From a virus: a DNA stretch of 26,811 nucleotides. Location: positions 1-26,811 of the IMG/VR virus record IMGVR_UViG_3300018080_000522, one strand, 5' to 3'. The translations under genes were made by a program, and so were the position numbers. The notes beneath the pieces were generated by a model. That model worked only from the letters and a program-made list of their open reading frames with translations. It searched no databases and was not told the origin of the DNA. Each line of letters opens with the position of its first letter. Position 1 is the stretch's first letter. This document shows positions 2 to 23,594 of this stretch, piece by piece.

Positions 2-991
2 GATCCTCGTTCCGGTAACTTACTCGGAAACGGGTTTCTCGTACAACAGTATGAAGTGAACGGTGCAGGTGCAGCGATCATCAACGAACCCTCTGCCAGA
101 AAATACCCGCATCGAGGTTATCTTCAGGAACCAGACACCAATCGTCTCGCGCGAAACGAAAATACAGTAGATACCATTGTCGAACTGAAGAAAGCAAACA
201 TTGATCGTTTCGTTCCTACCGCAGACATCACGATCACACCGAGACAAGTAGGCTCCGTGGGAACAACGAGTCCTGTTCTGAAAAGACAAAATCGCGCAGG
301 TGCATGGACAGAACCACTCACGCCTTACGGTGCAGAGTATCCGCACAATCATGTGTATGAAAGCGAATCAGGTCACATTGTCGAAATCGATGATACACCA
401 CAGCGAGAAAGACTACACCGCTATCATCGCACTGGCACATTTGAAGAAATCCACCCGAACGGGGATCGCGTAACCAAGATCGTAAGAAACAACTATACGA
501 TTGTTATGAAAAATGACAATGTGCATGTCGAAGGTTTCAAGAATGTTACAGTTGACAAAGCGTGTAAGATTTTGGTAAACGCTGACGAGGAAGGAAACGA
601 TCTGGATATTCAGATCGCAAGGACAGGCAATCTGAATCTCGATGTCAATGAAGGAAACATCAACGCAAAAGTTGGTACTGGTGATGTAAACCTCCAAGTG
701 GAAAACGGTTCATTGAACTTGCATGTGAACGGCAACTTCAATCAATACATCAGCGGAAACTACACACAAATAGTTGGTGGACAATATCTTGTGCGATCTG
801 GTTCTGGTAATGGTGGCGCAATCTTTTTGAACGCTGGACAAATACACTTGAACAAGCCTAACGCTCCAACATCAGGTGGTGAATCTTCGACAAGTGCAAC
901 ATTACCTGCACCAATCGTGTCAGATGCGGCAAGAGTTGCGGCGCAACGCACACAATCTACACCGCAAACAACTAAGAAGGAAATTGGTTAA
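2..991 (+). CDS. gp5-like baseplate hub / central spike protein, 5' end missing
   Basis: The reading frame is open from base 2 to the stop at 989-991, so the true start lies outside the window; a GTG at 56 is only an internal codon. About 329 residues are visible. They contain the conserved gp5-family segment YPHNHVYESESGHIVEIDD, then HRTGTFEEIHPNGDRV, then a run of short alternating hydrophobic/polar repeats (NLNLDVNEGNINAKV, NGSLNLHVNGNFNQYI). Such repeats are typical of the trimeric beta-helical needle that forms the membrane-piercing tail spike below the baseplate hub. The OB-fold expected at the N-terminus, and any lysozyme domain, would be upstream and cannot be checked. The stop overlaps the next ATG by one base (TAATG), which implies translational coupling. 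The family call is strong; the presence of lysozyme activity is unknown. Confidence 0.85.
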   Translation, partial: DPRSGNLLGNGFLVQQYEVNGAGAAIINEPSARKYPHRGYLQEPDTNRLARNENTVDTIVELKKANIDRFVPTADITITPRQVGSVGTTSPVLKRQNRAGAWTEPLTPYGAEYPHNHVYESESGHIVEIDDTPQRERLHRYHRTGTFEEIHPNGDRVTKIVRNNYTIVMKNDNVHVEGFKNVTVDKACKILVNADEEGNDLDIQIARTGNLNLDVNEGNINAKVGTGDVNLQVENGSLNLHVNGNFNQYISGNYTQIVGGQYLVRSGSGNGGAIFLNAGQIHLNKPNAPTSGGESSTSATLPAPIVSDAARVAAQRTQSTPQTTKKEIG

Positions 992-1560
992 TGGTATTTC
1001 GTTCTGGTTACAATCCCCTTCCGAGTGGTATCACACCAAAGTTTCCCGATCTCATCAAGATCGATCATCCATCTGCTGTCGTTCAAGCAGCGGGTGCGGG
1101 AAGATTACTTCAGCGAAATCCTCTGTGTGACAAAAATCTACTGAAGGGTATTGATGGTGTTGCAAGTATTCCTGGCGCAGTCTCAGACTTTCCTGGCATC
1201 AAAGATGTCATCGCAGGCACAGGTGTTTTCAATCTGTTTCCCGAAGATCCGATTGCACAGTTCACAGGAATACCGGAGTTTACTGCACTCGCAAATCCCG
1301 AAGGTATTTTGCGTGCATTAGGACTCCCAACGGAAATTGATCCTGAGCAGATCATCAAGGCTGCTGTGGACGATGTTCTGAACGCACTGGATATCGAAAA
1401 CCCACTTGCAGAGTTGTGTGAGGAGATTACTGAGGTGGGAGAGAGCATCGACCAGCAGATCCTTACTGAAATACCGACACTTCCGAACATAAATAGTTTG
1501 GTTCCCGATGTGGACTTCCCGAAGTTCTCACAAATTACAGATCAGTTACCAAACCTCTGA
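991..1560 (+). CDS. Hypothetical protein, 189 aa, between spike and Cys-rich gene
   Basis: I do not recognise this protein. It starts at the ATG of a TAATG junction with the gp5-like gene and ends in TGA. It is acidic and rich in Pro, Ile and Leu, with no clear signal peptide or membrane span. The N-terminal 40 residues (MVFRSGYNPLPSGITPKF) look ordered. The rest alternates short helices with Pro/Gly breaks, for example GIPEFTALANPEGILRALG and later PTLPNINSLVPDVDFPKF. Only two cysteines are present, unlike the next gene. Placed between the spike and the baseplate tip genes and tightly coupled to gp5, it may be a virion component or an assembly factor for the hub or for the large Cys-rich protein. 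That is inference from position only. Confidence 0.75.
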   Translation: MVFRSGYNPLPSGITPKFPDLIKIDHPSAVVQAAGAGRLLQRNPLCDKNLLKGIDGVASIPGAVSDFPGIKDVIAGTGVFNLFPEDPIAQFTGIPEFTALANPEGILRALGLPTEIDPEQIIKAAVDDVLNALDIENPLAELCEEITEVGESIDQQILTEIPTLPNINSLVPDVDFPKFSQITDQLPNL

Positions 1561-1569
1561 GGCTAAATC

Positions 1570-4500
1570 GTGGCGAAAATACCTTTTGATCCTTCATCTA
1601 CAGAGATTCCTGAAAATGCAATCACCAATGCGGAGCGTCGAGCGGCGCTTGTAGTTCTTGAAGGAAAGGCTCTCAAGAATCCTGCTAGAAAACTGATCGA
1701 CAACGCAAAGCGATGTGTGACACACCAGATCGCAGAGTTTGAAGAATTGCGAGACGGCATTTCTGCTGGAACACCGAATGAAGTGCCGGGTTGTTACTCT
1801 TGTGCCGGAATTCCTTTGCAATGCACAATCGAAGCAATTTCGCTACTCAATGACATCATGTATGAGTTGGATCTGATCGACATTCATACAGACAGAATCA
1901 CGGGAGCAAATCCCGAAACTGTTGATGAGTTTTTTCAGAGATTCTCTGCTGCGACGGAATACACCAAAGCACTCAAATCAGTAACAGGCAAGAACATCGA
2001 AAAGATATCGTGTGTGTTTTGTAGTGTTGCTGGCGAATGTACCGATGTCTATTCCAGAATCTGCAATTCTACTGGGTGTCAACCAAGCACCGGCATCTGT
2101 CAGGGATTTACGAAAGTCTCCGGTGTTTCAGGACTCGCCAGTAGAGTCAAAAACAATCCACAGTTATGTGCTTGCATGAACGAGGAGTTTCTGCCAGGAA
2201 TCATCGATGATCTACAGCAGATCATACCAAAAGACGAGTTGTGTTATTGCGAAGCAATTAGTTTTCTTTCAAAGTATTCGAGTGGTTTGAAACTTGCAAG
2301 CGATGTGTTGGGTGATCCTTTCGTTTCGGATGTTGTCAGTGAAGTGTTCGGAACATCAGACTTACAAAATGTTCTAAAGCAGATCAAAGAAGGCACACCG
2401 GACGACGAACAAACAGAATACTTTGAAAGAGTCGATCTCGTTGGTGCAGGTTGTCCAGAAGATTTTACGGATGCTGCAACTGGTCCTCCCGGTCCTCCCG
2501 GTCCTCCGGGTGCGCCTGGCTTACCCGGTCCACCCGGTCCTCCAGGTCAAAATTGTGATTGTGGTGATGATCCCGACCCAACCGGTGCGTGCTGCGTCGG
2601 TGATTACTGCATTTCTGTGTCTGGTAGTCAGTGTGGTTTCTTCGGTGGTGATTACAACGGAGATGGATCTATCTGTTTCAATTCGGAAACAGGAGAAGGT
2701 GTGAACTGTGCTGGTGCTGGTGGGTGCAATAACAATGAAGATTGTCCGCCAGGTTTAATTTGTTGTGGTTCAGACTGTGTTCAACCATGTCAAGATGGGA
2801 CTTGCCCTCCGTGCATTGAACCTTCTGATTGCCCCGAAGGCACATATGAATGTCCTGCGAACTCTGGTAGTTGTTGTGAAAATGGCAGATCGTGCTGCCC
2901 AAACGATCCCACCAATCCTTGCTGTCCGCCTGGTTCTAGTTGCTGCGACAACAAGTGCTGTGCATCTGCAAAATGCTGCGATGGTCTATGTTGTCCAAAT
3001 GAAGACGACACATGTTGCACAGACGAAGAAGGCAATCCGCTATGCTGCCCAGAAGGAACCATTTGCTGTGGGACTGGTTGCTGTCCAATAGAGGGTTCTG
3101 AGTGTTGTGACGGAGAGTGTTGTTCAACTCCGTGCTGCGGTGGTGTCTGTTGTCCAGACGGCGAACAATGCTGTAACGATACATGCTGTCCAACAGAATG
3201 CTGTGGAGGTAACTGCTGTGCTGAAGGTGAAATCTGTTGTAATGGAACCTGCACACCTCCAGAAGATTGTGATTGCGATGATCTTCCGGGTTGTTCTAAT
3301 TTTCCAAACATTGTGTGCAATAAATGCGAAAAGCCAAGATACCAAGCAGACGACTCTGGTGTATCTTGTCTAACAAATGTAGAAGACGGCAATCGGTGTA
3401 ATGTTCTTGTTAATAACACTGACGGTTGTTGCCCGGGTCAATGTTGGCAACACTGGAAGGAAGAATATGAGGTGTGCTGCACAGAACAAGCATGTCCCGG
3501 TGAAAAAGAATTCGAGAATACTTATGTTTGTTGTCCCGAAGGTCAAAATTGCTGTGTTCTACCAGATGGAACACCAACATGCTGTGAGGTAGGAAGTTCG
3601 TGCTGTGATGGATTTGGTTGTTGTCCGCATGTTTGTTGTCAGTGTGAAGAAGGAAGTAGTATTGTAAGCACATGCACGAATCCTCAAGAGCCATTCAATC
3701 CCGCTATAATCAATCAACTGTGTGGTTTGAATAACACCATCGGATGTTATGGAAACTATTATGCCGACTGTCCATTTGGTCCTAATCGTTGTCGAGGATA
3801 TGAGCCTATTCTAGAGGATTGTGAATGTGGTTGTCCTGCGGGAAGTGTTGATTGCAACAACGGGTTTGGATGCTGTCCGATGGACTGGCAATGCTGCACA
3901 AACCCAACCACAGAAATTGGTACATGCTGTGGACCTGGTTTGGAATGTTGCTGCCCAGATACAGACGGAAACAACGCAAGCGAACCGTGTGAATGTATTG
4001 ATCCTCTGACACAAAGATGCTGTGATGGAAAACCATCACCAGTCAATGAAGATTGTCCAGAATGTGCTACAAGTCTTGATTGCACAAATCCAGAAAAGCC
4101 AAATTGTTGTGGTGGAAAGTGCTGTGACTGTTGCAACAACGCGGGTGATGATTGTTGTGATACTGTGTGTTGCCTAAACGAAGAAACCGGAGAAACTACA
4201 TGCTGTCCAAACAGCAGCGATACCTGTTGTAATGGAGTGTGCTGTCCCGTAGACAGAGAGTGTTGTGGTCCAGATGGACCCTGCTGCCCACAAGGAGAAG
4301 TTTGCTGCACTAACGCAGCCGGAGAACAGGTATGTAAATTGCCGCAAAATTGCTGTGGTGGTGTAGTATGTCCGGGTGAGGGGAATTGCTGCAATGGCAC
4401 ATGTTTATCCGAAACTAATCTAACATGCTGCAACAACCAACCATGTCCAGCAGGAAATTGCTGTGGTGGTGTGTGCTGCGAAGAAGTTAGAGGTGGTGTA

Positions 4501-4614
4501 GATTTTAGTGGTTGTTGTGAACGAAATGGTATATGCGATTGTAACTATGGTGCTTGTAACAACGATTGCGACCCGGATGTTCCTGGCGGCGGTGGATTCG
4601 GAGGTGGTGGTTGA
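1570..4614 (+). CDS. Giant collagen-like, cysteine-rich structural protein, 1014 aa
   Basis: The start is GTG at 1570. A stop (TAA 1564-1566) closes the frame just upstream, the next in-frame Met is near residue 97, and GAGG at 1559-1562 gives a good ribosome binding site. Residues 1-304 are mostly non-repetitive and partly helical, with about 15 cysteines often as CxxC or CxC (CVFC, CAC, CYC). Residues 305-326 are a collagen-like run of seven Gly-X-Y triplets. Residues 329-1000 hold about 150 cysteines by eye count (roughly 22%), mostly as CC pairs in patterns such as CCPEGTICCGTGCCP and CCNGVCCPVDRECC. The protein ends in a Gly-rich tail, GGGGFGGGG. Collagen-like segments are known in phage fibres; the Cys-rich part suggests many disulfides or bound metal. 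A virion adhesin or baseplate appendage is likely from its position, but the function is unproven. Confidence 0.85.
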   Translation: MAKIPFDPSSTEIPENAITNAERRAALVVLEGKALKNPARKLIDNAKRCVTHQIAEFEELRDGISAGTPNEVPGCYSCAGIPLQCTIEAISLLNDIMYELDLIDIHTDRITGANPETVDEFFQRFSAATEYTKALKSVTGKNIEKISCVFCSVAGECTDVYSRICNSTGCQPSTGICQGFTKVSGVSGLASRVKNNPQLCACMNEEFLPGIIDDLQQIIPKDELCYCEAISFLSKYSSGLKLASDVLGDPFVSDVVSEVFGTSDLQNVLKQIKEGTPDDEQTEYFERVDLVGAGCPEDFTDAATGPPGPPGPPGAPGLPGPPGPPGQNCDCGDDPDPTGACCVGDYCISVSGSQCGFFGGDYNGDGSICFNSETGEGVNCAGAGGCNNNEDCPPGLICCGSDCVQPCQDGTCPPCIEPSDCPEGTYECPANSGSCCENGRSCCPNDPTNPCCPPGSSCCDNKCCASAKCCDGLCCPNEDDTCCTDEEGNPLCCPEGTICCGTGCCPIEGSECCDGECCSTPCCGGVCCPDGEQCCNDTCCPTECCGGNCCAEGEICCNGTCTPPEDCDCDDLPGCSNFPNIVCNKCEKPRYQADDSGVSCLTNVEDGNRCNVLVNNTDGCCPGQCWQHWKEEYEVCCTEQACPGEKEFENTYVCCPEGQNCCVLPDGTPTCCEVGSSCCDGFGCCPHVCCQCEEGSSIVSTCTNPQEPFNPAIINQLCGLNNTIGCYGNYYADCPFGPNRCRGYEPILEDCECGCPAGSVDCNNGFGCCPMDWQCCTNPTTEIGTCCGPGLECCCPDTDGNNASEPCECIDPLTQRCCDGKPSPVNEDCPECATSLDCTNPEKPNCCGGKCCDCCNNAGDDCCDTVCCLNEETGETTCCPNSSDTCCNGVCCPVDRECCGPDGPCCPQGEVCCTNAAGEQVCKLPQNCCGGVVCPGEGNCCNGTCLSETNLTCCNNQPCPAGNCCGGVCCEEVRGGVDFSGCCERNGICDCNYGACNNDCDPDVPGGGGFGGGG
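2482..2547 (+). repeat. Collagen-like Gly-X-Y repeat
   Basis: Twenty-two codons encode seven consecutive Gly-X-Y triplets plus a closing Gly (residues 305-326 of the Cys-rich protein). Five triplets are GPP and the others are GAP and GLP. The DNA is a degenerate nine-base repeat (ggtcctccc and variants). Collagen-like runs in phage fibres usually act as trimeric connectors; here the run joins the N-terminal head to the Cys-rich domain. Confidence 0.95.
3526..3645 (+). other. Granulin-like cysteine module A
   Basis: Residues 653-692 read VCCPEGQNCC, eight residues, a CC pair, five residues, a CC pair, four residues, CCPHVCCQC. The order CPxG-x2-CC-x8-CC-x5-CC-x4-CCP-x-C closely follows the granulin/epithelin pattern known from eukaryotic proteins. 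The match is in cysteine spacing and the Pro/Gly positions only; homology is not shown. Confidence 0.5.
4168..4266 (+). other. Granulin-like cysteine module B
   Basis: Residues 867-899 repeat the spacing of module A: CC, nine residues (LNEETGETT), CC, six residues, CC, three residues, CCPVDRECC. This is a second independent match to the granulin-type CC ladder within the same protein. The evidence is spacing only. Confidence 0.45.
4600..4604 (+). promoter_or_regulatory. Ribosome binding site deciding a TTG start
   Basis: GGAGG lies six bases before the TTG at 4611. It is built from the codons of the Gly-rich tail of the upstream protein. It supports TTG 4611 over the TTG at 4566 as the start of the downstream fibre gene. 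Confidence 0.65.
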
Positions 4615-6611
4615 CAACACGAAACACCAATGCGTATGGACCATATTCTGTTGAAGGCTGGTATCCTCTCTACAGCAGCAGTAGTGCTGCGTTTGAAGCG
4701 AGTCCACGGAACGAAGCAGAACCGATCTATCTTGCAGGCAGAAGATACTTTCGACCACTTGGTTTAGGAAAACCGGGAAACGGTGTAGTCTTCAATGGAG
4801 ATCATGTCGCACAAGAACATCAGATTCCTGTATCAGAAAGAAAACCAGTTGCCCCGGTTCTTCCAAGTGTCATTCAGACACCTGTTTCCTTTCAGATCAT
4901 CAACTTTCCACAGGCTGAAAAGAAGAAGACGAAAGTTGCTGGTGATGTGTTCTCGAAGAACTCCAGCGAAACAAAAATTTCTGGCGACTACCACACGACA
5001 CTCACAAACAAGAGCGGTCAAATCAAAACCACAACGAAGGTATCAACCATCGATGGTAAGGTATCACAAGATATCGTGGGCAGTCCGAACTTTGGTGCGA
5101 AGAATGTCACAGAAATCACTGGTTCCACGATACAGCAAATCAATTCAAACGGAATTCTGTTTGACGAAAAGGTAGTTACATTCGTATCTGGATCGAACAT
5201 TCGCATCGACACAGATAACGAACGACGAGACTTCATTCGCATCTCTGTGGATGAAATCAATCTGTGGGAATTGGAAGATGTGAACACCAACATGGACCCA
5301 AAGAAAGGCGAAGTCCTGATTTGGGACCCAGTCGAATCACAGTGGACAAATGGAAATGTCGATCTTCAGGAAACCACTGGTATTCTGTACGGTGGTGTTC
5401 TTACTGCCGTTCCGGGTGGAACTACTTTTGATGTCTCTGCTGGTATAGGACACATCATCACATACACGGCAGATTCTTCGGGTGCGTCTTTTGAAAGAGA
5501 GTATGTTTCGTGGAGTGAATTCACAGACGTCACACTTGATAACATTGCAACTCAAGACTTTACTTATCTTTACATCGATGACGGAGAGTTGATTCAGACA
5601 CCAACGCCATTCTCCGAATCGGATTACCAGACGAAGATCATTGTTGGAACCATCTGTCACATTGACAATGCCACAATCACTCTTGCGACAAACAAGCAGA
5701 GTGTGGGTTATCATTATTCTCAGAAAGTAACCGAACTGTTCAACATGTTCGGACCAATGAAAAAGTCCGGTCTTCGACTCACACCAAACGACTCAAATCT
5801 TAAGTTTGATAGATCGGCTGGTGAAGCACTGGTTGTCGGTGGAAACTATGGAACAAATCAGTTTGATCCAGACAATGTTGTTCTTTCTGCGGTGACTGGT
5901 GTTTCGTTCTGTCGTTTGTCAAGAGACGGTTCTGGAGGGTACTCATTTGATACCAATAACGGTTCATTTTATGAGTTCATCGATCCGGGTTACTATGACA
6001 ACAACAGTGGCACTTTACAGGTCGTAAATAACAACCAATGGACGATACAGCGACTGTTCATGTTCCCGAATAATCCTGCGGATGTTATTTGTTATTATGG
6101 TATTGATATCTACAACTCAAAGGAAGATGCACTCGATGGTATCGTAACAGAAGTTTTTGAAGAAGCACTAATCACTCAAGAGAATGCGGTGTTTTTGGGT
6201 GATCTTGTTATTCGTGGAGGAGCGACAAACCTATCATCTACTGACGATGCAAAGTTTCTTCCTGCTGGTTTTTCCCGTGCTGCTGGTGGTGGAGGAGGCG
6301 GTGGAGCCGGTGCAGTAGATAAGAGACTACTAGAAACAACACTAAGAACAACCGCATATACACTTACAATTGACGACGCATACAAAGTTGTTCCTTTCAA
6401 CAACCCACTCGGAACATCACTAACAGTACCGCAGAATGCCTCCGTTCCGTTTGAAATCGGAACGGTAATCTATGTTTACAATGCAGGTTCGGGTACTGTT
6501 AACATAACCCCAGCGAGCAAAGTGACTTTACGAAATTCGGGTGCAATCACTCAGTTTCAAGAAGTTTATTTACGAAAAAGAGCCACAGATGAATGGGTAA
6601 TGGTCACTTAA
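4611..6611 (+). CDS. Fibre-like virion protein, 666 aa, TTG start
   Basis: The best start is TTG at 4611. It overlaps the upstream stop as TTGA, has GGAGG six bases before it, and no in-frame ATG occurs until about residue 228. The early part (about residues 1-220) is polar with repeats of charged beta-strand type. Around residues 260-550 lies a beta-rich module (GIGHIITYTADSSGASFERE, later WTIQRLFMFPNNPADVICYY) that I associate with phage baseplate or fibre proteins. A run of seven glycines (residues 559-565) forms a hinge. The last 100 residues (AVDKRLLETTLRTTAYTLTI to the end) are a compact beta domain like those at fibre tips. It sits between the Cys-rich gene and the PAAR gene and is probably a baseplate-attached fibre or adhesin. 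No enzyme motif is visible. Confidence 0.8.
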   Translation: MTTRNTNAYGPYSVEGWYPLYSSSSAAFEASPRNEAEPIYLAGRRYFRPLGLGKPGNGVVFNGDHVAQEHQIPVSERKPVAPVLPSVIQTPVSFQIINFPQAEKKKTKVAGDVFSKNSSETKISGDYHTTLTNKSGQIKTTTKVSTIDGKVSQDIVGSPNFGAKNVTEITGSTIQQINSNGILFDEKVVTFVSGSNIRIDTDNERRDFIRISVDEINLWELEDVNTNMDPKKGEVLIWDPVESQWTNGNVDLQETTGILYGGVLTAVPGGTTFDVSAGIGHIITYTADSSGASFEREYVSWSEFTDVTLDNIATQDFTYLYIDDGELIQTPTPFSESDYQTKIIVGTICHIDNATITLATNKQSVGYHYSQKVTELFNMFGPMKKSGLRLTPNDSNLKFDRSAGEALVVGGNYGTNQFDPDNVVLSAVTGVSFCRLSRDGSGGYSFDTNNGSFYEFIDPGYYDNNSGTLQVVNNNQWTIQRLFMFPNNPADVICYYGIDIYNSKEDALDGIVTEVFEEALITQENAVFLGDLVIRGGATNLSSTDDAKFLPAGFSRAAGGGGGGGAGAVDKRLLETTLRTTAYTLTIDDAYKVVPFNNPLGTSLTVPQNASVPFEIGTVIYVYNAGSGTVNITPASKVTLRNSGAITQFQEVYLRKRATDEWVMVT

Positions 6612-6629
6612 TCGTTGTATACATACTGT

Positions 6630-6929
6630 ATGCCACAAGTAGTAAGAAAAGGCGACATCTGTACGGGACACGAATGTTTCCCACCAAGACCGAATAACGC
6701 AGGTTCTCCGAATGTGTTTGTGAACGGTATACCTGTTCACCGAAAGTCGGATACCTGGTCATTCCATTGCTGCGCTCGTAATTGTTTTGAGTCGGGACAC
6801 ACATCCACTACCGTTTCTGGTTCACCGACTGTATTTGCAAATGGGATTGCGGTTGCACGAAAAGGCGATCCAGTCGCTTGCGGTTCTCGTTGTAATACTC
6901 ACTCTCCTAATGTATGGGCGGACGGTTAA
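6630..6929 (+). CDS. PAAR-domain tail spike tip protein
   Basis: A 99-residue protein starting MPQVVRKGDICTGHECF, the usual opening of PAAR proteins (RKGD...GH), with later NVFVNGIPVHRKSD and TVFANGIAVARKGDP blocks. PAAR proteins cap the gp5-type needle (T4 gp5.4 role) and fold into a small cone whose tip binds a metal through His and Cys. I count seven Cys and five His here, enough for that site and more than the minimal set. I chose ATG 6630 over the TTG at 6615 because family members begin right at this Met; neither has a clear ribosome binding site. The gene ends at 6929, overlapping the gp25-like ATG by one base. Its closeness to the spike and wedge genes fits. Confidence 0.92.
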   Translation: MPQVVRKGDICTGHECFPPRPNNAGSPNVFVNGIPVHRKSDTWSFHCCARNCFESGHTSTTVSGSPTVFANGIAVARKGDPVACGSRCNTHSPNVWADG

Positions 6930-7315
6930 TGAAACCAAAAAGATATGTCGATCTCGATTTAGATTTCTTACCGCATCCCGTAACAAAGGATGTGGTTTTG
7001 AAGTATGACGAGGAAGCGGTCAAGCGTTCCGTGCGAAATCTCGTACTGACAAATCTGTTTGAAAAACCATTTCATCCAGAGATCTCGTCAAATGTAACCA
7101 CGCTTTTGTTTGAAAACTTCAATCCCGTTATTGCGATTCGTCTGCGAAATGATATCGAAAGAATCATTCGTGATTATGAACCAAGAGTGAATCTGAGATC
7201 AGTCAATGTAACACCCTCACCAGACAGAAACCTACTTGAGATTGGTATTCTTTTCCAAGTATCCGGTTTTAACTCAACAACAGGCATCAACATACCATTA
7301 GAGAGATTACGATAA
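6929..7315 (+). CDS. gp25-like baseplate wedge protein
   Basis: A 128-residue protein starting MKPKRYVDLDLDFLPHPVTK at the ATG of a TAATG junction; an in-frame ATG at 6914 would add five residues but lacks support. It carries the gp25/GPW family landmarks: AVKRSVRNLVLTNLFEKPFH near the start, then a helix with LFENFNPVIAIRLRNDIERI, then a beta-strand end (NLLEIGILFQVSG). In T4, gp25 joins gp6 and gp53 in the wedge and resembles the end of the sheath, starting sheath polymerisation on the baseplate. The length matches T4 gp25 (about 132 aa). It overlaps the gp6-like start by one base, so the two wedge partners are coupled. Confidence 0.93.
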   Translation: MKPKRYVDLDLDFLPHPVTKDVVLKYDEEAVKRSVRNLVLTNLFEKPFHPEISSNVTTLLFENFNPVIAIRLRNDIERIIRDYEPRVNLRSVNVTPSPDRNLLEIGILFQVSGFNSTTGINIPLERLR

Positions 7316-9177
7316 TGGCAGAAGAACTTAATAAAAACCTTCAAGTCACGGATCTGGACTTTGATAGTATCAAAGAAAGTCTGAAGTCCTATCTTCAAGG
7401 ACAGGATCTGTTCAAGGATTATAACTTTGAAGGTTCTGGTCTAAACTACCTACTCGATGTTCTCGCTTACAACACACACTACCAGTCGTTCTACACGAAC
7501 ATGGTTGCGAACGAAACCTTTTTGGATACGGCGATCCGTCGAGACTCGGTAGTGTCAATCGCAAAGCATTTGGGTTATACACCAAACTCAGTTCGTTCGC
7601 CATTTGCAATCGTAAACATCAGTAGCGACGAAGCGTTCACACTCGACGCTGGAACCGTTTTCACAAGTAGTGTTGCCGGTGAATCATATACTTTCGTCAC
7701 GAAAGAAAACATCACCAGCAAAGTCTCCGGTGATCTTTATGTGGCAGAGAATGTTTCGATCTATGAGGGCGAGTTCTCCACGCTGTCATTTGTTGTGAAT
7801 AGTAACAATCGAAATCAAAGATTCATTCTGCCAGAAAACACTGACACCTCTACTCTCACTGTGCGAGTTGCAAACTCAATCACCGATTCCACAGGACTCA
7901 GTACGAAATGGCAACTTGCATCCAATCTCAATGAAGTGAAGTCTACCGACAAGGTATACCATCTTCAGGAGACGGACAACGGTAGATTTGAAATTTACTT
8001 TGGTGATAACATCGTTGGTGTCAAACCTGCAAACGGTAATGTAATCGTGTGTCAGTTCGTACTCACACGAAACCCTGACGCAAATGGCATCGGATCGAAC
8101 GACACAGAAACAAGAAGATCGTTTACTCTTGAGGGATTTGATGTCAGAACAATTGCGGCATCTGCTGGTGGTGCAAATCCAGAATCGATTCGCTCGATCA
8201 AGTTCAATGCTCCAAGAAACTACCAAGCACAAGATAGAGCAGTCACACAAAACGACTTTGCAACAATGATTCTTCGGGACTTTCCTGACATTGAGACTGC
8301 CGTGGTGTGGGGCGGACAAGACAATGATCCTCCGATATACGGAAAGGTGTTCATCGCACTCAAACCAAAAACTGGCATCTCTCTTGACGCTCCAACAAAA
8401 CAACTGATAATTGACAGTCTGAAACGCAATCGAAGTATTGTATCTGTCGTTCCAGAGATTCTCGACCCAGATCCGTTGTATCTTTTGTTTGACGCGCGAG
8501 TTGTTTTCGATCAAAGCAGAACTACACAAACACCAAACGGAATTCGTTCGTTTGCTCTGACACAGATACAAAACTATGTGGACACTGATCTAGAAAAGTT
8601 CGACGGCGATCTTTACTACTCGAAACTGCTAGGTCTGATTGATGACATCAGCGATTCTGTTGTGGGAACTGAACTGCGCATTCGTATTCAGAAGCATCTC
8701 ATACCAACACTGAACACCACGACAAACTACTCGCTGAATTTCAACAACGAAGTGTTTCACCCGAACGACGGGTATCAGACACCGGTTGTATCTTCTACTG
8801 GTTTTGATTACAAGGACGACAATAACACCGTTTTCCGTGGATTTCTTGAAGACGACGGTTCGGGAAATATCAGAATCTTCAAGGTAAATGATCTAGGAGT
8901 AAAGACGATAGTTTACACAAATGTTGGCTCAATAGATTACAAGAAAGGCAGACTGTCTCTCTTGAATTTCCGTCCTCTCGCAATTGATGGGACAGTCATA
9001 CGAATTACGGTGATGCCGAAAAATCAAAACATCTATGCGAACGAAAACCAACTACTGACTCTTGATGTGACAGATCCAGAGAGTCTACAGGTTGTTGCAG
9101 TTACCACGCTTCAAGAGAAAAACATGCAACTCAACAACAGAATTCTAGGTAACGGTTCTATCATAACAGGAGTGTGA
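7315..9177 (+). CDS. gp6-like baseplate wedge protein (baseplate J family)
   Basis: A 620-residue protein, close to T4 gp6 (660 aa). Residues about 41-97 carry the family signature (GLNYLLDVLAYNTHYQSFYT, then ANETFLDTAIRRDSVVSIAK and HLGYTPNSVRS). A beta-rich middle follows, and then the region RNYQAQDRAVTQNDF...RDFPDIETAVVWGGQDNDP, typical of gp6/baseplate J proteins, where it helps form the ring around the hub. The last 100 residues look like an added beta domain. gp6 forms the continuous inner ring that clamps the wedges and opens during sheath contraction. It is coupled to gp25 by TAATG and ends two bases before the next ATG. Confidence 0.93.
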   Translation: MAEELNKNLQVTDLDFDSIKESLKSYLQGQDLFKDYNFEGSGLNYLLDVLAYNTHYQSFYTNMVANETFLDTAIRRDSVVSIAKHLGYTPNSVRSPFAIVNISSDEAFTLDAGTVFTSSVAGESYTFVTKENITSKVSGDLYVAENVSIYEGEFSTLSFVVNSNNRNQRFILPENTDTSTLTVRVANSITDSTGLSTKWQLASNLNEVKSTDKVYHLQETDNGRFEIYFGDNIVGVKPANGNVIVCQFVLTRNPDANGIGSNDTETRRSFTLEGFDVRTIAASAGGANPESIRSIKFNAPRNYQAQDRAVTQNDFATMILRDFPDIETAVVWGGQDNDPPIYGKVFIALKPKTGISLDAPTKQLIIDSLKRNRSIVSVVPEILDPDPLYLLFDARVVFDQSRTTQTPNGIRSFALTQIQNYVDTDLEKFDGDLYYSKLLGLIDDISDSVVGTELRIRIQKHLIPTLNTTTNYSLNFNNEVFHPNDGYQTPVVSSTGFDYKDDNNTVFRGFLEDDGSGNIRIFKVNDLGVKTIVYTNVGSIDYKKGRLSLLNFRPLAIDGTVIRITVMPKNQNIYANENQLLTLDVTDPESLQVVAVTTLQEKNMQLNNRILGNGSIITGV

Positions 9178-12958: not shown

Positions 12959-15900
12959 ATGGCAACAGAAGGTAAGTCTCGTTTCAACATCGAACCATAC
13001 TACGACGACTTTGACGAGGCGAAGAAGTTTCTTCGCATTCTCTTTCGTCCATCGTATTCTGTTCAAGCAAGAGAACTCACACAACTACAAACCATTTTGA
13101 ACAATCAAGTCGGCAGATTTGCCGACCATATCTTTGAAAACGGTTCAATCGTTAAGGGTGGTAGTGTTTCTGAGTCTCGCGTTCAATTCGTTCGTCTTGA
13201 AACAACGACAACTGATCCTTCACAGTTGCTTAATTATGAAATCACATTTACGGAAAACGATGTTACAAAGAGAGGAAAGGTTGTTGCAACTCTACCAGCA
13301 ACGACAACCGATCCCCATGTAATTTTGTTTTACGAACCGTACACAGGAACCGGCGCAACCGATACCACAAACAACGGAAGATTGTTTGTTTCTGGCAATC
13401 GTCTTCAAACAACCAATCCAAACATTACAACTGATGGTTCTGATGCACTCATCGTAAAGGCACAAGGTTCCATTGCACCAACCGGCGAAGCAATTCTCGT
13501 CTCGATTCAGCAAGGAATTTTCTACCTTGAGGGATTCTTCGTACTGAACGATGCACAATCGATTCCCGTATTCAAAACTACGAATGGTGTTCGTGACTTT
13601 ACCATCGACAGTCAAACAACCGCTGTCGGATTTAACATCAACCGAGTTACAGTCACCGTCAACGACGATGTTTCTCTCCGCGATCCGGCGCAAGGTTCTT
13701 ATAACTTTAACGCACCCGGAGCGGATCGATACAAGATTGATCTGGTAATCGATCAGATTCCGTTCACATTCAATGAAGACGGATTCCGAACGGAGTTCGA
13801 TACCGAAAACTTCATCGAGTTCTTCCGCGTTCTGAATGGCGAAACATTCAAGACGCTTAAGTATCCAGACTATGCTGGTCTAGAAGAAACACTTGCGAGA
13901 AGAACCTTCGATGAGTCGGGACACTACACAGTTAGACCATTTGGTATCGAGGTTCTGGAATACGATGTTAACAACGGTGGTGTATTCGATCCAACAGTAA
14001 GCCCATCCGAACAGATTCGCAATGATCCTGATGGATTCCTTGCAGTCGGAATGAAGACCGGTAAAGCGTATGTTCAGGGTTATGAGTTTGAACTACAGAA
14101 CACAGAGTATCTTGTCGGAAGAAAGGCAAGAGACTTGGATCATGTTCAAACTCAATCCGAGCAACTTCTTCCGTTCGACCTTGGTAACTATGTAATCGTC
14201 AGTAACAACGCGAACTCTCTTTTCGGTGACTTCTTTACTACAAACACCGATAGTGTTTTTGGACCAAAGCAAAAGAAACTTGCGCTGCTAGATGTCGAAA
14301 GAAACCATATTGGATGTGCAAACGCAGTCCACCTGCAACCAAACGATTTCAACTCAACAACATATCGTTTGTATTTGTCTGATATTGTGTTTGGAACCCA
14401 AGCAGGGGTGAATGCACAGTATGATACCGCTACTATAGAACAGGTTGCATATTTTGCATCAAGCGATACAGCATCTCAAGAAACGATATTCACCGCAGAA
14501 CCAAACAGTGGTTTTGATGGTTCTCCGTTGTTTGACAGAGGAAATGCAACTCTAGTGTATCGTGTTCCCGTTGGAAACACTGTCAAGGAAATCACCGGGT
14601 TAGATTACTATGTGCAACGAGACTTCCAACCAACACTAACAAATGTTGGTGGTGACATTTACGAAGCAGTCATCGGAAACGAATCTGGCAATCCATTCAA
14701 TCTGTTGCCTTCTGGTGCTGTGTTTCAGGGAACCAACAATTCTGATGGATTTGTCGATACCATCGATGAACTTGATGAATACATCGTTTCTGTCAACGGT
14801 CACATTTACACCATGTCACCAGAAACTTCCGGTCTGTACGGCGGAAACACGCTTTCGGTAAACAGCGGAAACACATCGGTAACACTCACACTCGATCTGT
14901 CAAACGAAGAAAGCATTCCAGAAAAAATCTATGTGCTTGCAAATGTTCGAGTTGAAGACAGCACCGGAGCAAACTTCCGCAAAAAGATTCTCAAGAAAAG
15001 AACACTAACTCTCAATGGCAATTCCAATACTGTTTTCAGCAACGCAATTGCTAGAGGTTATGGCATCAGTCTTGAAATCTCAGATGTGTACCAACTTCTC
15101 TCGGTGAAAGATGCGACAGATGCAAACAAAGACATCACATCGCTGTTTACACTAGACAATGGACAGCGTTCGTACTTGTACGATCACGCAAGTATTATTC
15201 TCGATGAAAGTTATGCGGATGGTAAAGAAGGACCTGGTGATAAGTGGTTAAACAATGGTGATGCGGCACTATTTACTGTCGAGTTTCTTTACTTCGATCA
15301 TCGAGTTGGTGCAAGTGGTAAATACGATCAGATCACATATCCGATTGTAGTTCAATCATATCTTCATGACATGCACGAAGCAGGCGTCACAGTGGATGGT
15401 GTGACAACAGACTTCAACTACAGTCTGATTCCACCATTCGTAGACAAGAGAACTGGTGAAACATTCAGTTTGTCTGATGCAATCGATCATCGACCAATTC
15501 GTGCGCCTGGTGTTGCTTATGAGGGTGATCTTGTAACACCAGACGAGTCTGGTAGAGTTTATGGTGCATGGACACCCGAAGACGGCAATCTTTACTTCGT
15601 CAACTATACTCACTATCTTCCAAGAATCGATAAGATTTTGCTCACGAAGGAAAGAGAATTCAAGATTCTTGAAGGTCGTCCTTCACTTGAACCAATTGCA
15701 GCAGAACACAATCCTGAAAACGTAATGGTTCTGTACGAGATCAAAGTAGAACCATACACTTTCGGTCCCGAGGATGTCGAAATCAAGTATATCGACAACC
15801 AGCGATATACCATGAGAATGATCGGTGAACTGGATAAGAGAATCACTCGACTTGAAGAACTCTCCAAACTCACCGATGATGAGCAAGAAGCAAAGACCTC

Positions 15901-18364
15901 CATCGCTTCGTTCTCTAACACATTCCTTAACGGCATGGTAATCGACTCGTTCTCTACACACGATTCGGCAGATATTGACAGCGAAGAACACTCGATTGCA
16001 ATAGATCAGGAAACAGGAACACTTCGTCCAACAACATCTGCTGTTAACATCGATCTTCGCTCAAGCGAATCTTCCCCGACTGGTATCACACTATCAGCGG
16101 ATAATGTAATCAGTCTTACACCAACAGGAACCGAAGCAACTGTTGTTGCTCTAGAAGCAAACACAACAGTCAAGGTAAATCCTTCGTCGAAGGTGAACTG
16201 GGTTGGTTCTCTTTCGCTTTCCCCTTCCAGTAGTAACTGGCTTAGCACATATAAACCAGTCGTTGTAAACAACAACGAAGGTGGAAAGAACACTCACTGG
16301 ATCTCTGGTAGAAAGAAGAACACCAGAGGTGTGCGAAATGGTTTCGGAACACAATGGAAGTGGTGGAATATTCACTGGGGAACCGAACGCGACAGAAGCA
16401 TCACCGAAGAACTCGACTATGCTTCAAACATTACAAACACTTCGCATCTTCGTGAGGTGTTGTATGATCGCTGGTCACAAATCGTTCCAAGCGACAAGTC
16501 GGTTTCAAAGACAACAGGCTTCCGAAACACAGTTGCGTCTTATAGCGCAACAGGTAAAGCAAGAAGTGCTAGAAACAGAATCCGTCCTATCACACTTCGC
16601 AGACCGGACAACTCGATCAATTTCAGAATGGACTCTGTAACGATTGACTTCTCTGCATCCAATCTGAAGCCGTTCACCAAGATGTATGTTTTCTTCGATG
16701 GAAGAAAACTTGGATTGCAGTCTGAAAACAGTGCTTCGTACAATAACGATTATGGTTATCTTGCCAATCTGAACCCATCGACGCTTGTAACTGACGAGTA
16801 CGGTTCTGTTTCCGGTCAGATCGTGATTCCCACAACCAACAAGTACCTTGCAACAGACAAGGTAATCAGAATCACAGACTCCGCACAGAACATTTCTTCG
16901 GAAAGCACAACATCCACCGATATGATTTTCCGCATCGACGGAAACTCCAGAACTCAAGGTTCCGGTAGACTGCGTGCAAGTCTCGCAAAGAGGGATTCCA
17001 CAAAGCAAGATCGAATCGTTCAGGATGCAACAACTACAAACCGCAAGCAAATTCTTTCCTCTGTTGCGGACTATTACGATCCATTGACTCAAACATTCTT
17101 TGTCGATGGTTCACGCTATCCAAACGGCATCATGTGTTCCAGCATTGATATTTACTTCAAGACAAAGAACGCGAATGTTCCTGCAAAGATCGAACTTCGG
17201 GATGTAGTAAACGGAGTACCAGATCCATCGCATGTCATTGCATTCTCAGAGGTTACAAAGCCTGGTGACACTTCACTTGCGGACGGTGTAACTGTATTCT
17301 CAACTGGTCCAGATTCGACAAAGTATACTCGGTTTACCTTTACAACACCGGTTCGATTGACACCCGGAGAATATGCACTTGTCGTCCGAAGCAACAGCAG
17401 CGACGACGAACTTTGGGCTGCGACTCTCGGTGAAAAAGGCATTACTGCCGACGGTTTGAACACCAGCACCGAAGTCATCAAGCAACCCTATGTCGGAAGA
17501 TTGTATCTACCACAAAACAATGGAACAAGAGTCGAAGACACAACTCGCTCCCTCATGTTCCGTGTGAACAGAAATGTCTACGACACCACAGAAACCAAGC
17601 AGATTCGCTTGCGTGGTGTTGCAAACTCTGCGAGAAACCAAGACGGAGTGGTTGTAACAACACCATCCGTAAACTACATCGAACTGAAGGCTACCATCGA
17701 ACAGGAGCCAGATGCTGTGGTTCGATTCTTGCCTTCTACAAGCAACTTCTCCGCTGCTGATAGACGAGAGTTGATTCCAAACAGAACGACAAAGATCCTC
17801 GGTAAGCCAGGAACATATCCAAGAAGCACGACAAATGAAATCTCCACAAACGAAGGGGATCTTCTTGAACTGATTCTTGGAACACCAGACGCAAACATCT
17901 CACCACTTGTTGACTTGGATCGTTTGTCTCTCGTCTGTGTAAGAAACAACATAAGCACCGACACTTCCGGCGAAGAAGACCCGGTAGTGATCGATAAGCC
18001 TGACAAGGGTGTTGCAAGATACATCGGCAAGAGAAATACACTAGACATTCCCGCGAATAACATTCGTGTTGAGTTTGAAGGAAACCTTCCAGAAGAAACC
18101 GATGTCAAAGTCTATGTCAAGATTCTTGAAGACACAAAGACAGACTTCGAGAAGCAACCATACATTGAACTCACGAAGACAAGCGAAACTTTGAGAAACC
18201 CATCAAACACAAATGACGGTGAGTTCTATAAGTTCTCGTACATTCCAAAGACACCAACGGGATCATTCTCGGTGTATTCGACAAAGATTGTTCTAACAGG
18301 ACCGGATAATGGTCTTGCTGTTCCTGCGATTCGCAACTTAAGAACATATGCGATTACGACATGA
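12959..18364 (+). CDS. Giant DUF4815-type structural / fibre-network protein, 1801 aa
   Basis: The protein starts at ATG 12959 with AGGA nine bases upstream. The first 70 residues (FNIEPYYDDFDEAKKFLRIL, ARELTQLQTILNNQVGRFAD) are the DUF4815 signature of large virion proteins in T4-like marine phages. A helical segment near residues 948-983 (YTMRMIGELDKRITRLEEL) looks like a trimeric coiled coil. After it come a Trp-rich block near residues 1127-1147 (NGFGTQWKWWNIHWG), the block DFSASNLKPFTKMYVFFDG, and YYDPLTQTFFVDG with SSIDIYFKTKN near 1371-1404, all recurrent in this family. It follows gp8 directly, where T4 has gp9, gp10 and gp11, so it probably forms the outer baseplate or long proximal fibre. 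It overlaps the next gene by ATGA. Confidence 0.88.
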   Translation: MATEGKSRFNIEPYYDDFDEAKKFLRILFRPSYSVQARELTQLQTILNNQVGRFADHIFENGSIVKGGSVSESRVQFVRLETTTTDPSQLLNYEITFTENDVTKRGKVVATLPATTTDPHVILFYEPYTGTGATDTTNNGRLFVSGNRLQTTNPNITTDGSDALIVKAQGSIAPTGEAILVSIQQGIFYLEGFFVLNDAQSIPVFKTTNGVRDFTIDSQTTAVGFNINRVTVTVNDDVSLRDPAQGSYNFNAPGADRYKIDLVIDQIPFTFNEDGFRTEFDTENFIEFFRVLNGETFKTLKYPDYAGLEETLARRTFDESGHYTVRPFGIEVLEYDVNNGGVFDPTVSPSEQIRNDPDGFLAVGMKTGKAYVQGYEFELQNTEYLVGRKARDLDHVQTQSEQLLPFDLGNYVIVSNNANSLFGDFFTTNTDSVFGPKQKKLALLDVERNHIGCANAVHLQPNDFNSTTYRLYLSDIVFGTQAGVNAQYDTATIEQVAYFASSDTASQETIFTAEPNSGFDGSPLFDRGNATLVYRVPVGNTVKEITGLDYYVQRDFQPTLTNVGGDIYEAVIGNESGNPFNLLPSGAVFQGTNNSDGFVDTIDELDEYIVSVNGHIYTMSPETSGLYGGNTLSVNSGNTSVTLTLDLSNEESIPEKIYVLANVRVEDSTGANFRKKILKKRTLTLNGNSNTVFSNAIARGYGISLEISDVYQLLSVKDATDANKDITSLFTLDNGQRSYLYDHASIILDESYADGKEGPGDKWLNNGDAALFTVEFLYFDHRVGASGKYDQITYPIVVQSYLHDMHEAGVTVDGVTTDFNYSLIPPFVDKRTGETFSLSDAIDHRPIRAPGVAYEGDLVTPDESGRVYGAWTPEDGNLYFVNYTHYLPRIDKILLTKEREFKILEGRPSLEPIAAEHNPENVMVLYEIKVEPYTFGPEDVEIKYIDNQRYTMRMIGELDKRITRLEELSKLTDDEQEAKTSIASFSNTFLNGMVIDSFSTHDSADIDSEEHSIAIDQETGTLRPTTSAVNIDLRSSESSPTGITLSADNVISLTPTGTEATVVALEANTTVKVNPSSKVNWVGSLSLSPSSSNWLSTYKPVVVNNNEGGKNTHWISGRKKNTRGVRNGFGTQWKWWNIHWGTERDRSITEELDYASNITNTSHLREVLYDRWSQIVPSDKSVSKTTGFRNTVASYSATGKARSARNRIRPITLRRPDNSINFRMDSVTIDFSASNLKPFTKMYVFFDGRKLGLQSENSASYNNDYGYLANLNPSTLVTDEYGSVSGQIVIPTTNKYLATDKVIRITDSAQNISSESTTSTDMIFRIDGNSRTQGSGRLRASLAKRDSTKQDRIVQDATTTNRKQILSSVADYYDPLTQTFFVDGSRYPNGIMCSSIDIYFKTKNANVPAKIELRDVVNGVPDPSHVIAFSEVTKPGDTSLADGVTVFSTGPDSTKYTRFTFTTPVRLTPGEYALVVRSNSSDDELWAATLGEKGITADGLNTSTEVIKQPYVGRLYLPQNNGTRVEDTTRSLMFRVNRNVYDTTETKQIRLRGVANSARNQDGVVVTTPSVNYIELKATIEQEPDAVVRFLPSTSNFSAADRRELIPNRTTKILGKPGTYPRSTTNEISTNEGDLLELILGTPDANISPLVDLDRLSLVCVRNNISTDTSGEEDPVVIDKPDKGVARYIGKRNTLDIPANNIRVEFEGNLPEETDVKVYVKILEDTKTDFEKQPYIELTKTSETLRNPSNTNDGEFYKFSYIPKTPTGSFSVYSTKIVLTGPDNGLAVPAIRNLRTYAITT

Positions 18365-18567: not shown

Positions 18568-21204
18568 ATGGCAAGTACCCTACACAGTGTAACACCATTA
18601 CAACTTTCCGATTCGTTCAACGAATGGTATCTACGAAGCAACGATCTGATCGATGTCGTAAATCGAATCAATGTGTATGATGTTGTTGGTGGGTTTGGGT
18701 TTGCCGAATATCGTGCGGTTGACGGAACAAAAACACTCCGCATCAACATCGGTCAAGGTAATGCAGAGTATCAAGGAACACTAATCGGTGTAACAGGACA
18801 AGGAATCTACGGTCTTCGATTCTTGGACGATCCTTCTGCTACCGGTGCAAACAATCCTGATGTGTCTACATCGCACAAGGTTCTCGCAGTTGACATTGCT
18901 GGTTTGCCAGACGCAACACCAGGTCCAACAGGAACAGTGGAAGCAGACGACTATTTCATGTTCGCGGATGTGTCTACTGCAACCGCAGACATAAGACGAG
19001 TGAAAGCATCTGAGTTGCTTCCGTATTCGATTTCCGGCGATCACAGATTCACCGGAAATATTTACTTCGATGGTACATACACTGTTATTAACTCATCCGA
19101 ACTGTTCGTTGACGACAAAGTTATTTACTTGGGAACAAGTGGTGATAGCGACGGTGGTGAACCGGGACTGAATGATGTAAACATCGACGGTGCAGGTGTC
19201 GTCGTTCGTGGTCTTTCAGGTGACAAAGAGTGGGTTGTTGATACGAGCAATGCCGGTATTAGTTCTGCGTATCAGGCGTGGAAAACAAATATCGGCATCG
19301 ACTTCAATGTTGCAAAAGCATACACCAATGCGTTTAACATTTTCGGTTACAACTCAGCAGAAACCAAAATCACGATCTCGCACGATGGAGTTGCAGACGA
19401 GCGGTTTGAAATCGGTGCGTTCAAGGCAGGCGATACACAAAAGCGAATTCGTATTGGTTATGTAAACACACAAACCGGAGCAACAGCAGACGGTATTCGT
19501 GTTACTCGACAGGGAACTGTTCAGGTTCCGAAACTGAATGGTGATGTAGTCGTATCAGGCATCACATTTGAAAACTCTTTCAGTTACACTGCAAAGAATA
19601 ATGCGGTTCCAACATCTTCGGCAGAAGGTGCTGGTAACACATACGACACACACCTGAACTACAAGTGGACAAACCGAAAACTGGTAGAGCAAACAGCACA
19701 CGGGTTTACTTCTGGTGATCTGTTAAAGTTCTATAGCAGTGCTGCTGGTGCAACATACGACAAAGCAGACAACTCAACAGCGGTAAATGCAGAAGTTGTC
19801 GCAATCGTTGAAAAATCGCACTCACCAAACCACTTTACCGCAGTCTACACAGGACTCGTTGACCTTTCCGAAGTACCGGATGGTTCGACTCTCGCTCCCG
19901 GTGAAGTCTACTTCTTAGGTTCTACTGCTGGTAGTTACACCTCGCAGGAACCAACCGAAGTCGGCAAAATACGCAAACCAGTTTTGATCGGTGTTACCGG
20001 AGACACTGGTCTTTTTGTCAACTACATCGGCAACGAAGTTGCTTTCGATACTGGTGGACAGAGTTTCGATTTCGTTACATACGACACACACAACATCGAA
20101 CTCATCGATCAAAGAATCGTCACTTCCTCGTTTAGAAACAAGATCATCAACGGTGACTTCGACTTCTGGCAAAGATGGAGAGACTACGATGGAATCGCAG
20201 GAACGCAAGTTACCGGTGACATCAACCTGCCGACAGGAAATGCTTACGGAACCACTCTAGAGTTTGGTGAAGGTGTTACCGGATATCATGCAGACATGTG
20301 GGCGATTCTTTCAGCGGAAATCGATCCTACCAACACACGATCCTGTGTCGTGCATAAGTTAGCACACACAGGCGATAACGCAATCAAAACTACAGGTGGA
20401 ACCACACCAAGAAGTTACATTCGTGTTGAAAGTGGTCCATCTGGAGCAGGAGATATCATTCTCTCACAGAGAATCGAAAATGTAAGAACACTGGGAAGCA
20501 CCACTGGTGAAAATGAAATCATCTTAAGTTACTGGATTCGCGGAACCAGCATGGATGGTGGATCTACAGACTTCAAGGTGAATGTTCTTCAGGTGTTTGA
20601 TGGTTCGACATATGATACTGGTTCCACAAACTGCTTTGCAATCAACGGTTCTGTCACTAGCACAGATGGAACTACCTTTGATGTGTCCAGTGAATGGCAA
20701 CAGAAGCAAACCCGATTTAGAACAAACGAACTGAACACCTTCTCCTCATCGATCAACGCAGACAAAAACTGGCTTGAAGTTCAGTTTATTCTTCCTCCGG
20801 CATGGGGATCTGGAGTTGGTTTCGATCTTTCCCGCGTGCAATTAGAATCTGGAACAAACAGATCGAGATTTGAGGAGCGTCCACTCTCTATCGAGAAGCA
20901 ACTGTGTGAAAGATACTATGCAATCGCTGATGTTTCTTACAACGGTTACTTCATCGAAGGAACAACCGCGACAAGTATGGTAAAACTCGATGCAGAGTTG
21001 TACCCATCGATTGATGTTCATGGTATCAGCGGTTCTTCTGTTGGAACGACAGTTGTTGGAACTGATTTTGTATCAAGCGGAGATATCGATTCTATATCTC
21101 TGTCGGACATTACCATTTCGGGTAGTTCTGTGCTTGCGGAAAGAGGCGCTTCTGGTAGCGTCAGTTGCGTTTCGAGTTATCACATAGATAGTAGTATAAG
21201 ATAA
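18568..21204 (+). CDS. Tail fibre-like protein, 878 aa
   Basis: ATG 18568 follows the previous stop with AAAGGA at 18556-18561. The N-terminus (TPLQLSDSFNEWYLRSNDLI) is a short helical anchor typical of phage fibres. The middle contains FTGNIYFDGTYTVINSSELF and DDKVIYLGTSG, a beta-stranded motif common in fibres of T4-like marine phages. Residues about 372-487 form a module shared with the next gene (HGFTSGD ... GEVYFLG ... IRKPVLIG ... NYIG). Residues about 524-772 run from KIINGDFDFWQRW to VQLESGTNRSRFEERP, a carbohydrate-binding-like jelly-roll pattern known in many phage fibres. CERYYAIADVSYNGYF follows near the end. It is likely a receptor-binding fibre; the ligand is unknown. Confidence 0.88.
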   Translation: MASTLHSVTPLQLSDSFNEWYLRSNDLIDVVNRINVYDVVGGFGFAEYRAVDGTKTLRINIGQGNAEYQGTLIGVTGQGIYGLRFLDDPSATGANNPDVSTSHKVLAVDIAGLPDATPGPTGTVEADDYFMFADVSTATADIRRVKASELLPYSISGDHRFTGNIYFDGTYTVINSSELFVDDKVIYLGTSGDSDGGEPGLNDVNIDGAGVVVRGLSGDKEWVVDTSNAGISSAYQAWKTNIGIDFNVAKAYTNAFNIFGYNSAETKITISHDGVADERFEIGAFKAGDTQKRIRIGYVNTQTGATADGIRVTRQGTVQVPKLNGDVVVSGITFENSFSYTAKNNAVPTSSAEGAGNTYDTHLNYKWTNRKLVEQTAHGFTSGDLLKFYSSAAGATYDKADNSTAVNAEVVAIVEKSHSPNHFTAVYTGLVDLSEVPDGSTLAPGEVYFLGSTAGSYTSQEPTEVGKIRKPVLIGVTGDTGLFVNYIGNEVAFDTGGQSFDFVTYDTHNIELIDQRIVTSSFRNKIINGDFDFWQRWRDYDGIAGTQVTGDINLPTGNAYGTTLEFGEGVTGYHADMWAILSAEIDPTNTRSCVVHKLAHTGDNAIKTTGGTTPRSYIRVESGPSGAGDIILSQRIENVRTLGSTTGENEIILSYWIRGTSMDGGSTDFKVNVLQVFDGSTYDTGSTNCFAINGSVTSTDGTTFDVSSEWQQKQTRFRTNELNTFSSSINADKNWLEVQFILPPAWGSGVGFDLSRVQLESGTNRSRFEERPLSIEKQLCERYYAIADVSYNGYFIEGTTATSMVKLDAELYPSIDVHGISGSSVGTTVVGTDFVSSGDIDSISLSDITISGSSVLAERGASGSVSCVSSYHIDSSIR
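19681..20034 (+). repeat. Fibre module 1, copy in the 878-aa protein
   Basis: Residues about 372-489 align by eye with residues about 18-145 of the 785-aa neighbour. Shared landmarks in the same order are H-x-F-x2-G, NAE with a following VE, FT-x-V, GE-x-YFL, IRKP-x-x-I and NYIG. This suggests duplication or exchange of one domain between adjacent fibre genes. Confidence 0.6.
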
Positions 21205-21210
21205 TAGGAG
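21205..21210 (+). promoter_or_regulatory. Ribosome binding site for the GTG-started fibre gene
   Basis: TAGGAG sits six bases upstream of GTG 21217 in a 12-base gap and decides that start; no in-frame ATG is nearby. Confidence 0.7.
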
Positions 21211-21216
21211 TTAACC

Positions 21217-23574: not shown

Positions 23575-23594
23575 ACTAATAAGGAATCGATCAT

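Follow-up and report, generated by a model that had tools for sequence, protein, structure and literature searches.

As a rule, cysteine is scarce in phage virion proteins. Several described systems resemble parts of the Cys-rich protein reported here. DUF7217 (PF23854, phrog_2114) comprises structural proteins of Ackermannviridae and Ounavirinae; known members are about 240 aa long, occur alone or in longer proteins, have neither a collagen stretch nor a Cys region, and lie outside the gp5–gp25 slot in the genomes examined. Mass spectrometry has found one of them, ORF129 of phage LIMEstone1, in virions (PMC3296691), and we identify it as a DUF7217 protein because it aligns with CBA120 orf171 (64% identity), which Pfam puts in this family. 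Granulins carry a disulfide ladder on stacked hairpins (PMC11035057). In the collagen-like tail fibre proteins of Escherichia coli prophages, as far as their description goes (PMC3368898), a short G-X-Y stretch joins appendage domains. T4 gp37 and the fibres of Alteromonas phage R22Y are also tail appendages with unusual side-chain chemistry, in their case His-based iron sites. Finally, proteins of Planctomycetota (Phycisphaerae) share a module of roughly 43 residues, the GACC module, with phage proteins.

The protein is encoded in a window of 26,811 nucleotides, that is, the whole stretch of viral DNA that was analysed, and the features discussed are collected in Table 1. Its N-domain has a fold in common with DUF7217 at about 15% identity. 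Compared by description with the E. coli prophage fibres, it has only 8 triplets and is distinguished by a 22% Cys region; compared with T4 gp37 and R22Y, it has Cys instead of His, and metal motifs are depleted. Like the granulin domain (PF00396), it has CC pairs that are predicted to sit on stacked short β-hairpins, but these form a long open-ended array rather than a 12-Cys domain, and the protein is phage-encoded without a secretion signal. The DUF7217 link, the CC-pair pattern, the fusion to a fibre gene homologue, and the tandem copies are new here.

Table 1. Coordinates of the features discussed, numbered from the first nucleotide of the window
Feature	Position	Strand	Details
gp5-like baseplate hub/lysozyme, C-terminal part	2..991	+	cut by window start; phrog_430, E 4e-47
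orf189, small conserved gene	991..1560	+	directly upstream of Cys-rich gene
Cys-rich collagen-linked putative structural protein	1570..4614	+	GTG start, 1014 aa, 167 Cys
All-helical N-domain (predicted)	1570..2481	+	remote DUF7217 relative by model, Foldseek, and hhalign
Collagen-like linker	2482..2553	+	aa 305–328, 8 G-X-Y triplets
GACC module	2581..2709	+	aa 338–380; GACCx4Cx7Cx3GGxYxG with DxNxDG loop
Cys-pair ladder region	2725..4569	+	aa 386–1000; CCx3CC/CCx5CC spacing, longer loops between
Segment aligning with granulin AaE (6cku)	2968..3129	+	aa 467–520
GGAGG (4600–4604) and TTG start (4611–4613) of next gene	4600..4613	+	frame continuous with ORF 4566–6611
Fibre-like partner gene	4611..6611	+	666 aa; homologous to C-terminal part of fused relatives
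PAAR spike-tip protein	6615..6929	+	PF05488, E 2e-13
gp25 baseplate wedge	6914..7315	+	PF04965, phrog_261
gp6 baseplate wedge	7315..9177	+	phrog_219, E 2e-162

A Cys-rich gene in a baseplate operon

The gene comprises 1014 codons without the stop, and its start codon has GAGG before it. A sequence-only reading had described a collagen-like stretch followed by a region at more than 20% Cys, with about 150 Cys counted by eye after the Gly-X-Y connector. Both estimates were accurate, since the collagen-like stretch (GPPGPPGPPGAPGLPGPPGPPGQN, aa 305–328) is followed by 686 residues (aa 329–1014) with 152 Cys (22.2%) and 52 CC pairs. The Cys are not confined to the part after the connector, however, as the first 328 residues have another 15. 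The collagen-like stretch is short (8 consecutive triplets) and misses the Pfam Collagen threshold (19 bits against a cut-off of 27.2; E 0.0012), and it is found in every relative with sequence extending that far. Only the PAAR protein, at 7.6% (8 Cys in 104 aa), joins it as a Cys-rich product; the remaining genes of the window encode 0–1.1% Cys each.

The same reading had placed the gene within a baseplate operon, which Pfam and PHROGs bear out with gp5, PAAR, gp25, and gp6 around it. The closest cultured phages by gp6 are mostly marine Kyanoviridae at <40% identity, and on these relatives a marine kinship of these T4-type phages may be suggested.

A full-length homologue, 83% identical overall, occupies the same place in a contig of another sample (L001, the same as L071). 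By NG86, comparison of the two genes gives a dN/dS of 0.07/0.82 for the N-domain and of 0.14/1.35 for the Cys region, far under 1 in each part tested. Every one of the 148 aligned Cys of the Cys region is kept, even though 53 of their codons differ synonymously, whereas other residues are kept less (Gly 88%, Asn 73%, Glu 65%). A 12-residue indel drops four Cys together, and the total is still 167 in both proteins. The C-terminal third is the most variable part, at 67% identity. Because there are independent homologues, low dN/dS, and conserved synteny, an artefact, frameshift, or chimera can be ruled out: ORF 1570–4614 is a real gene under purifying selection. We take the reverse-strand ORFs beneath it (e.g., 2790–3419 and 3759–4436, both on the − strand) as shadows of the Cys codons.

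The family was assembled by two routes. Scanning for GACC modules at the DNA level found 34 IMG/VR stretches, and an N-domain profile gave 12 loci; the N-domain occurs in four of the 34 pattern stretches, with the close homologue not counted. The sequence-only reading had proposed a protein search of viral genomes for the same position; relatives are present in 12 phage contigs besides the window, all of them fragments from uncultured phages, with N-domain identities of 28–88%. A gp5 homologue lies upstream in each of the 12, and PAAR and gp25 or gp6 follow downstream wherever the flank is covered. Where the sequence reaches, the relatives have the same layout of N-domain, collagen-like linker, GACC module, and Cys-dense region, the densest part of which has about 27–33 Cys per 100 residues.

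Directly upstream, a homologue of orf189 is found in 11 of the 12 contigs (34–93% identity) and is missing only in the L075 contig. No Pfam, PHROG, or NCBIfam match was found for orf189, and it was rejected as a DUF7217 paralogue (hhalign 0.4%). It is likely an assembly partner or chaperone of the Cys protein.

In five relatives (L066, L075, L076, L078, and L079), the Cys protein runs on into a homologue of ORF 4611–6611, and the C-terminus of the L079 fusion protein matches the tail fibre proteins phrog_9017, 7760, and 22179 (tip domain). Only in fused relatives does the chain itself include a recognised fibre domain; in the window, ORF 4611–6611 is separate, with parts that match phage tail fibre/tailspike proteins and the minor tail protein phrog_8780. 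Its TTG start overlaps the Cys-gene stop codon and has GGAGG ahead, so translational coupling is likely on these signals, and both proteins are probably synthesised in concert. Two tandem copies each are present in the L078 contig and in the L079/L066 contig, and such paralogues in one phage could give two fibre types.

A known, well-described Cys-rich phage family with an assigned function would have refuted the sequence-only reading, and none was found in the open-access literature or the databases searched. Pieces of the protein gave no convincing match in Pfam, NCBIfam, or PHROGs, and tblastn of the whole protein, N-part, and Cys part against 50,697 phage records gave nothing significant, the low-complexity filter hampering the Cys part; no relative thus turned up in cultured phages. 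The N-domain profile had no match in GTDB cellular genomes in one narrow pattern scan, and we found no report of Cys-rich marine phage structural proteins in the open-access literature.

The N-domain and the GACC module

The AlphaFold model of the N-domain is a helical bundle with pLDDT mostly 75–97 over aa 31–240. Foldseek with this model finds phage DUF7217 proteins at E 1.3e-4 to 3.3e-3 (including 9.3e-4), and hhalign of the family against an alignment of eight DUF7217 proteins gives 94% (E 1.4e-7), compared with 0.1% for the reversed alignment and at most 1.1% for 50 column shuffles. Shared motifs include GxGLxNPL, a YTxAMKS-like helix, and ATxxLKxxL. In hmmscan of Pfam, no DUF7217 (PF23854) row appears at E up to 10; against PHROGs, there is a weak match only, to phrog_2114 (E 0.031); and VIA returns generic helical bundles only, up to Z 9.4. 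Profile–profile and fold comparison make the N-domain a distant relation of the DUF7217 family, one that the curated Pfam score does not recover, and it is a probable virion anchor.

The GACC module is conserved in 11/11 aligned members and, besides the 34 viral stretches, is common in Planctomycetota genomes among the matches listed. By a crude hydrophobicity rule, 34/62 GACC ORFs in the Planctomycetota loci listed have a secretion-like N-terminus, as opposed to 56/295 other ORFs; among the listed matches with a closed 5′ end, none reaches 20 Cys per 100 residues. The Cys-rich phage proteins have no hydrophobic N-terminal segment or signal peptide. This fits GACC modules being intended for an oxidising exterior, which the phage would gain via lysis, and is not evidence of the phage host.

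Other GACC-type arrangements were seen among the viral stretches. Some phage ORFs (L070, L041) have one or two GACC modules close to the C-terminus. In another phage contig (L050:7786–13829), a different Cys-rich ORF with GACC modules but no N-domain (1125 aa, 85 Cys) immediately precedes gp25 and gp6, giving this position a second architecture. In L044, L051, L057, L064, and L068, a second architecture has a collagen-like N-terminus ahead of Cys-rich GACC-type modules (32–249 Cys), with a PIGIAGxTGxF domain between them in several of this set; the L068 protein had no match in cultured phages. A scan for CC motifs also returned a short Cys-/Gly-rich ORF with a different pattern (L011:574–1446; 290 aa, 26 Cys).

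A probable cysteine ladder

The spacing of the Cys is far from random. CCx3CC occurs 14 times in the window protein against 0.8 expected, and CCx5CC 12 times against 0.4, values reached in 0/2000 shuffles for either motif. CxC and CxxC are depleted in the same comparison (8 observed versus 26 expected, and 3 versus 20, respectively), and the Cys region has many acidic residues and 2 His in 688 residues. In the first Cys segment, the majority of columns that do not vary among aligned members hold Cys. An even number of Cys was discarded as a sign of pairing, since it depends on the boundaries chosen, some sequences are incomplete, and the set is phylogenetically redundant.

Structure prediction of the Cys region, which the sequence-only reading had proposed, was carried out for aa 327–574 and answers for that part: the model has serial short β-hairpins, with pLDDT about 80–87 in the CC-rich part and pTM 0.40. 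Foldseek of the model against the PDB gave no match at E < 1; the best solved match among its candidates is granulin AaE (6cku), with a weak VIA-align Z of 3.9 (rmsd 3.2, 51/56 residues, 31% identity). The Pfam Granulin cut-off is not reached (12.2 bits against 20.9), and AlphaFold is not a reliable guide to the connectivity of Cys-rich proteins, which it can get wrong (PMC11035057); we therefore claim a granulin-like architecture and not PF00396 membership. On the model, a granulin-like disulfide ladder is the most likely architecture of the Cys region, and we favour it over a metallothionein because of the CC-pair spacing, the depletion of CxC and CxxC, and the predicted hairpins. A metallothionein-like protein would show these clusters in excess, and in the window protein the shuffle comparison finds them depleted.

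A proposed fibre shaft and its rivals

The sequence-only reading had found no function to explain the protein; the field is now narrowed to a fibre-shaft role. We consider it probable that the protein is a baseplate-anchored shaft of a fibre or adhesin in a T4-type phage, made reduced and cross-linked after lysis. The helical N-domain would dock on the baseplate or hub, and the short collagen-like stretch may act as a trimerising linker or hinge. The Cys region of roughly 690 residues would form a rod of serial β-hairpins, tied by a granulin-like disulfide ladder, and the distal part of the fibre would be supplied by the product of 4611–6611, which is on the same chain in several relatives. 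Since the protein lacks a signal peptide, it would be reduced in the cytoplasm and become oxidised in oxic water, during lysis or later, yielding a fibre shaft or adhesin that is stiff and resists proteases. The earlier idea of an extracellular adhesin or rigid armoured appendage of the baseplate thus gains support from synteny, the fibre-tip fusions, and the DUF7217 anchor, to which the hairpin-ladder model and the cysteine spacing add for the rigid appendage.

That reading had offered disulfides after lysis, bound metal, or a folding partner as explanations for so many Cys. Disulfides outside the cytoplasm are favoured by the spacing and the hairpin model, and metallothionein-like metal binding is disfavoured by the depletion of CxC and CxxC. 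The family contigs, which are fragments, gave no thioredoxin-fold match that would point to a folding partner encoded by the phage. They also gave no match to a 2OG-Fe(II) oxygenase, which would serve collagen hydroxylation. The window protein has about 76 possible disulfide bridges per chain. That the shaft is a disulfide-ladder rod cured to a rigid and protease-proof state only post-lysis, by environmental oxygen, is a more specific suggestion, which we offer tentatively.

The Cys region might itself be adhesive, its GACC and hairpin modules binding glycans or proteins on the host surface, with the collagen stretch serving just as a tether. The Planctomycetota proteins whose GACC modules accompany secretion-like N-termini, the L070 and L041 ORFs with their modules by the C-terminus, the absence of a tip domain at the end of the window protein, and the variability of its C-terminal third are all in keeping with this. 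We consider it unlikely, however, because the Cys region of the five fused relatives is internal to the chain and leads on to fibre-like sequence, and a shaft is the better fit for rod-like repeats.

Less probable still is a metal-binding domain for Zn, Cu, or Fe (e.g., an iron lure as in the Ferrojan/Trojan Horse hypothesis). T4 gp37 and R22Y (PMC11705849) are known or proposed cases of phage tail fibres that bind metal, much Cys is combined here with many acidic residues, and a PAAR gene is near. Yet the iron sites of those fibres are HxH rather than Cys (PMC11705849), His is nearly absent from the Cys region, CxC and CxxC are depleted, and both spacing and model suit a disulfide ladder. A non-virion protein released at lysis (a decoy, matrix, or anti-competitor) that only sits in the late operon would share its module with bacterial proteins that have secretion-like N-termini, but is very improbable given the invariant neighbourhood from gp5 to the next baseplate genes, an anchor domain known from a virion protein, and the fusion to fibre-like domains.

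With >100 Cys per chain in a baseplate-linked family, the use and timing of disulfides in virions become testable, as does the question of whether virions mature post-release. Curing by oxygen after lysis, if true, would mean that a phage appendage completes its maturation outside the cell, and the Cys rod could be a stiff protein-rod material. The N-domain, collagen linker, GACC module, and CC ladder also provide a marker set for unstudied uncultured T4-type phages.

Further genes of interest lie downstream in the window. A protein of 1801 aa (12959–18364) with DUF4815 and phrog_358 occupies the place of VrlC-annotated proteins in related phages. Three more adsorption-type genes follow in a row (18568–25655), namely, a fibre-like gene (18568–21204), a fibre with a Collar domain (21217–23574), and a β-helix spike-like gene (23595–25655).
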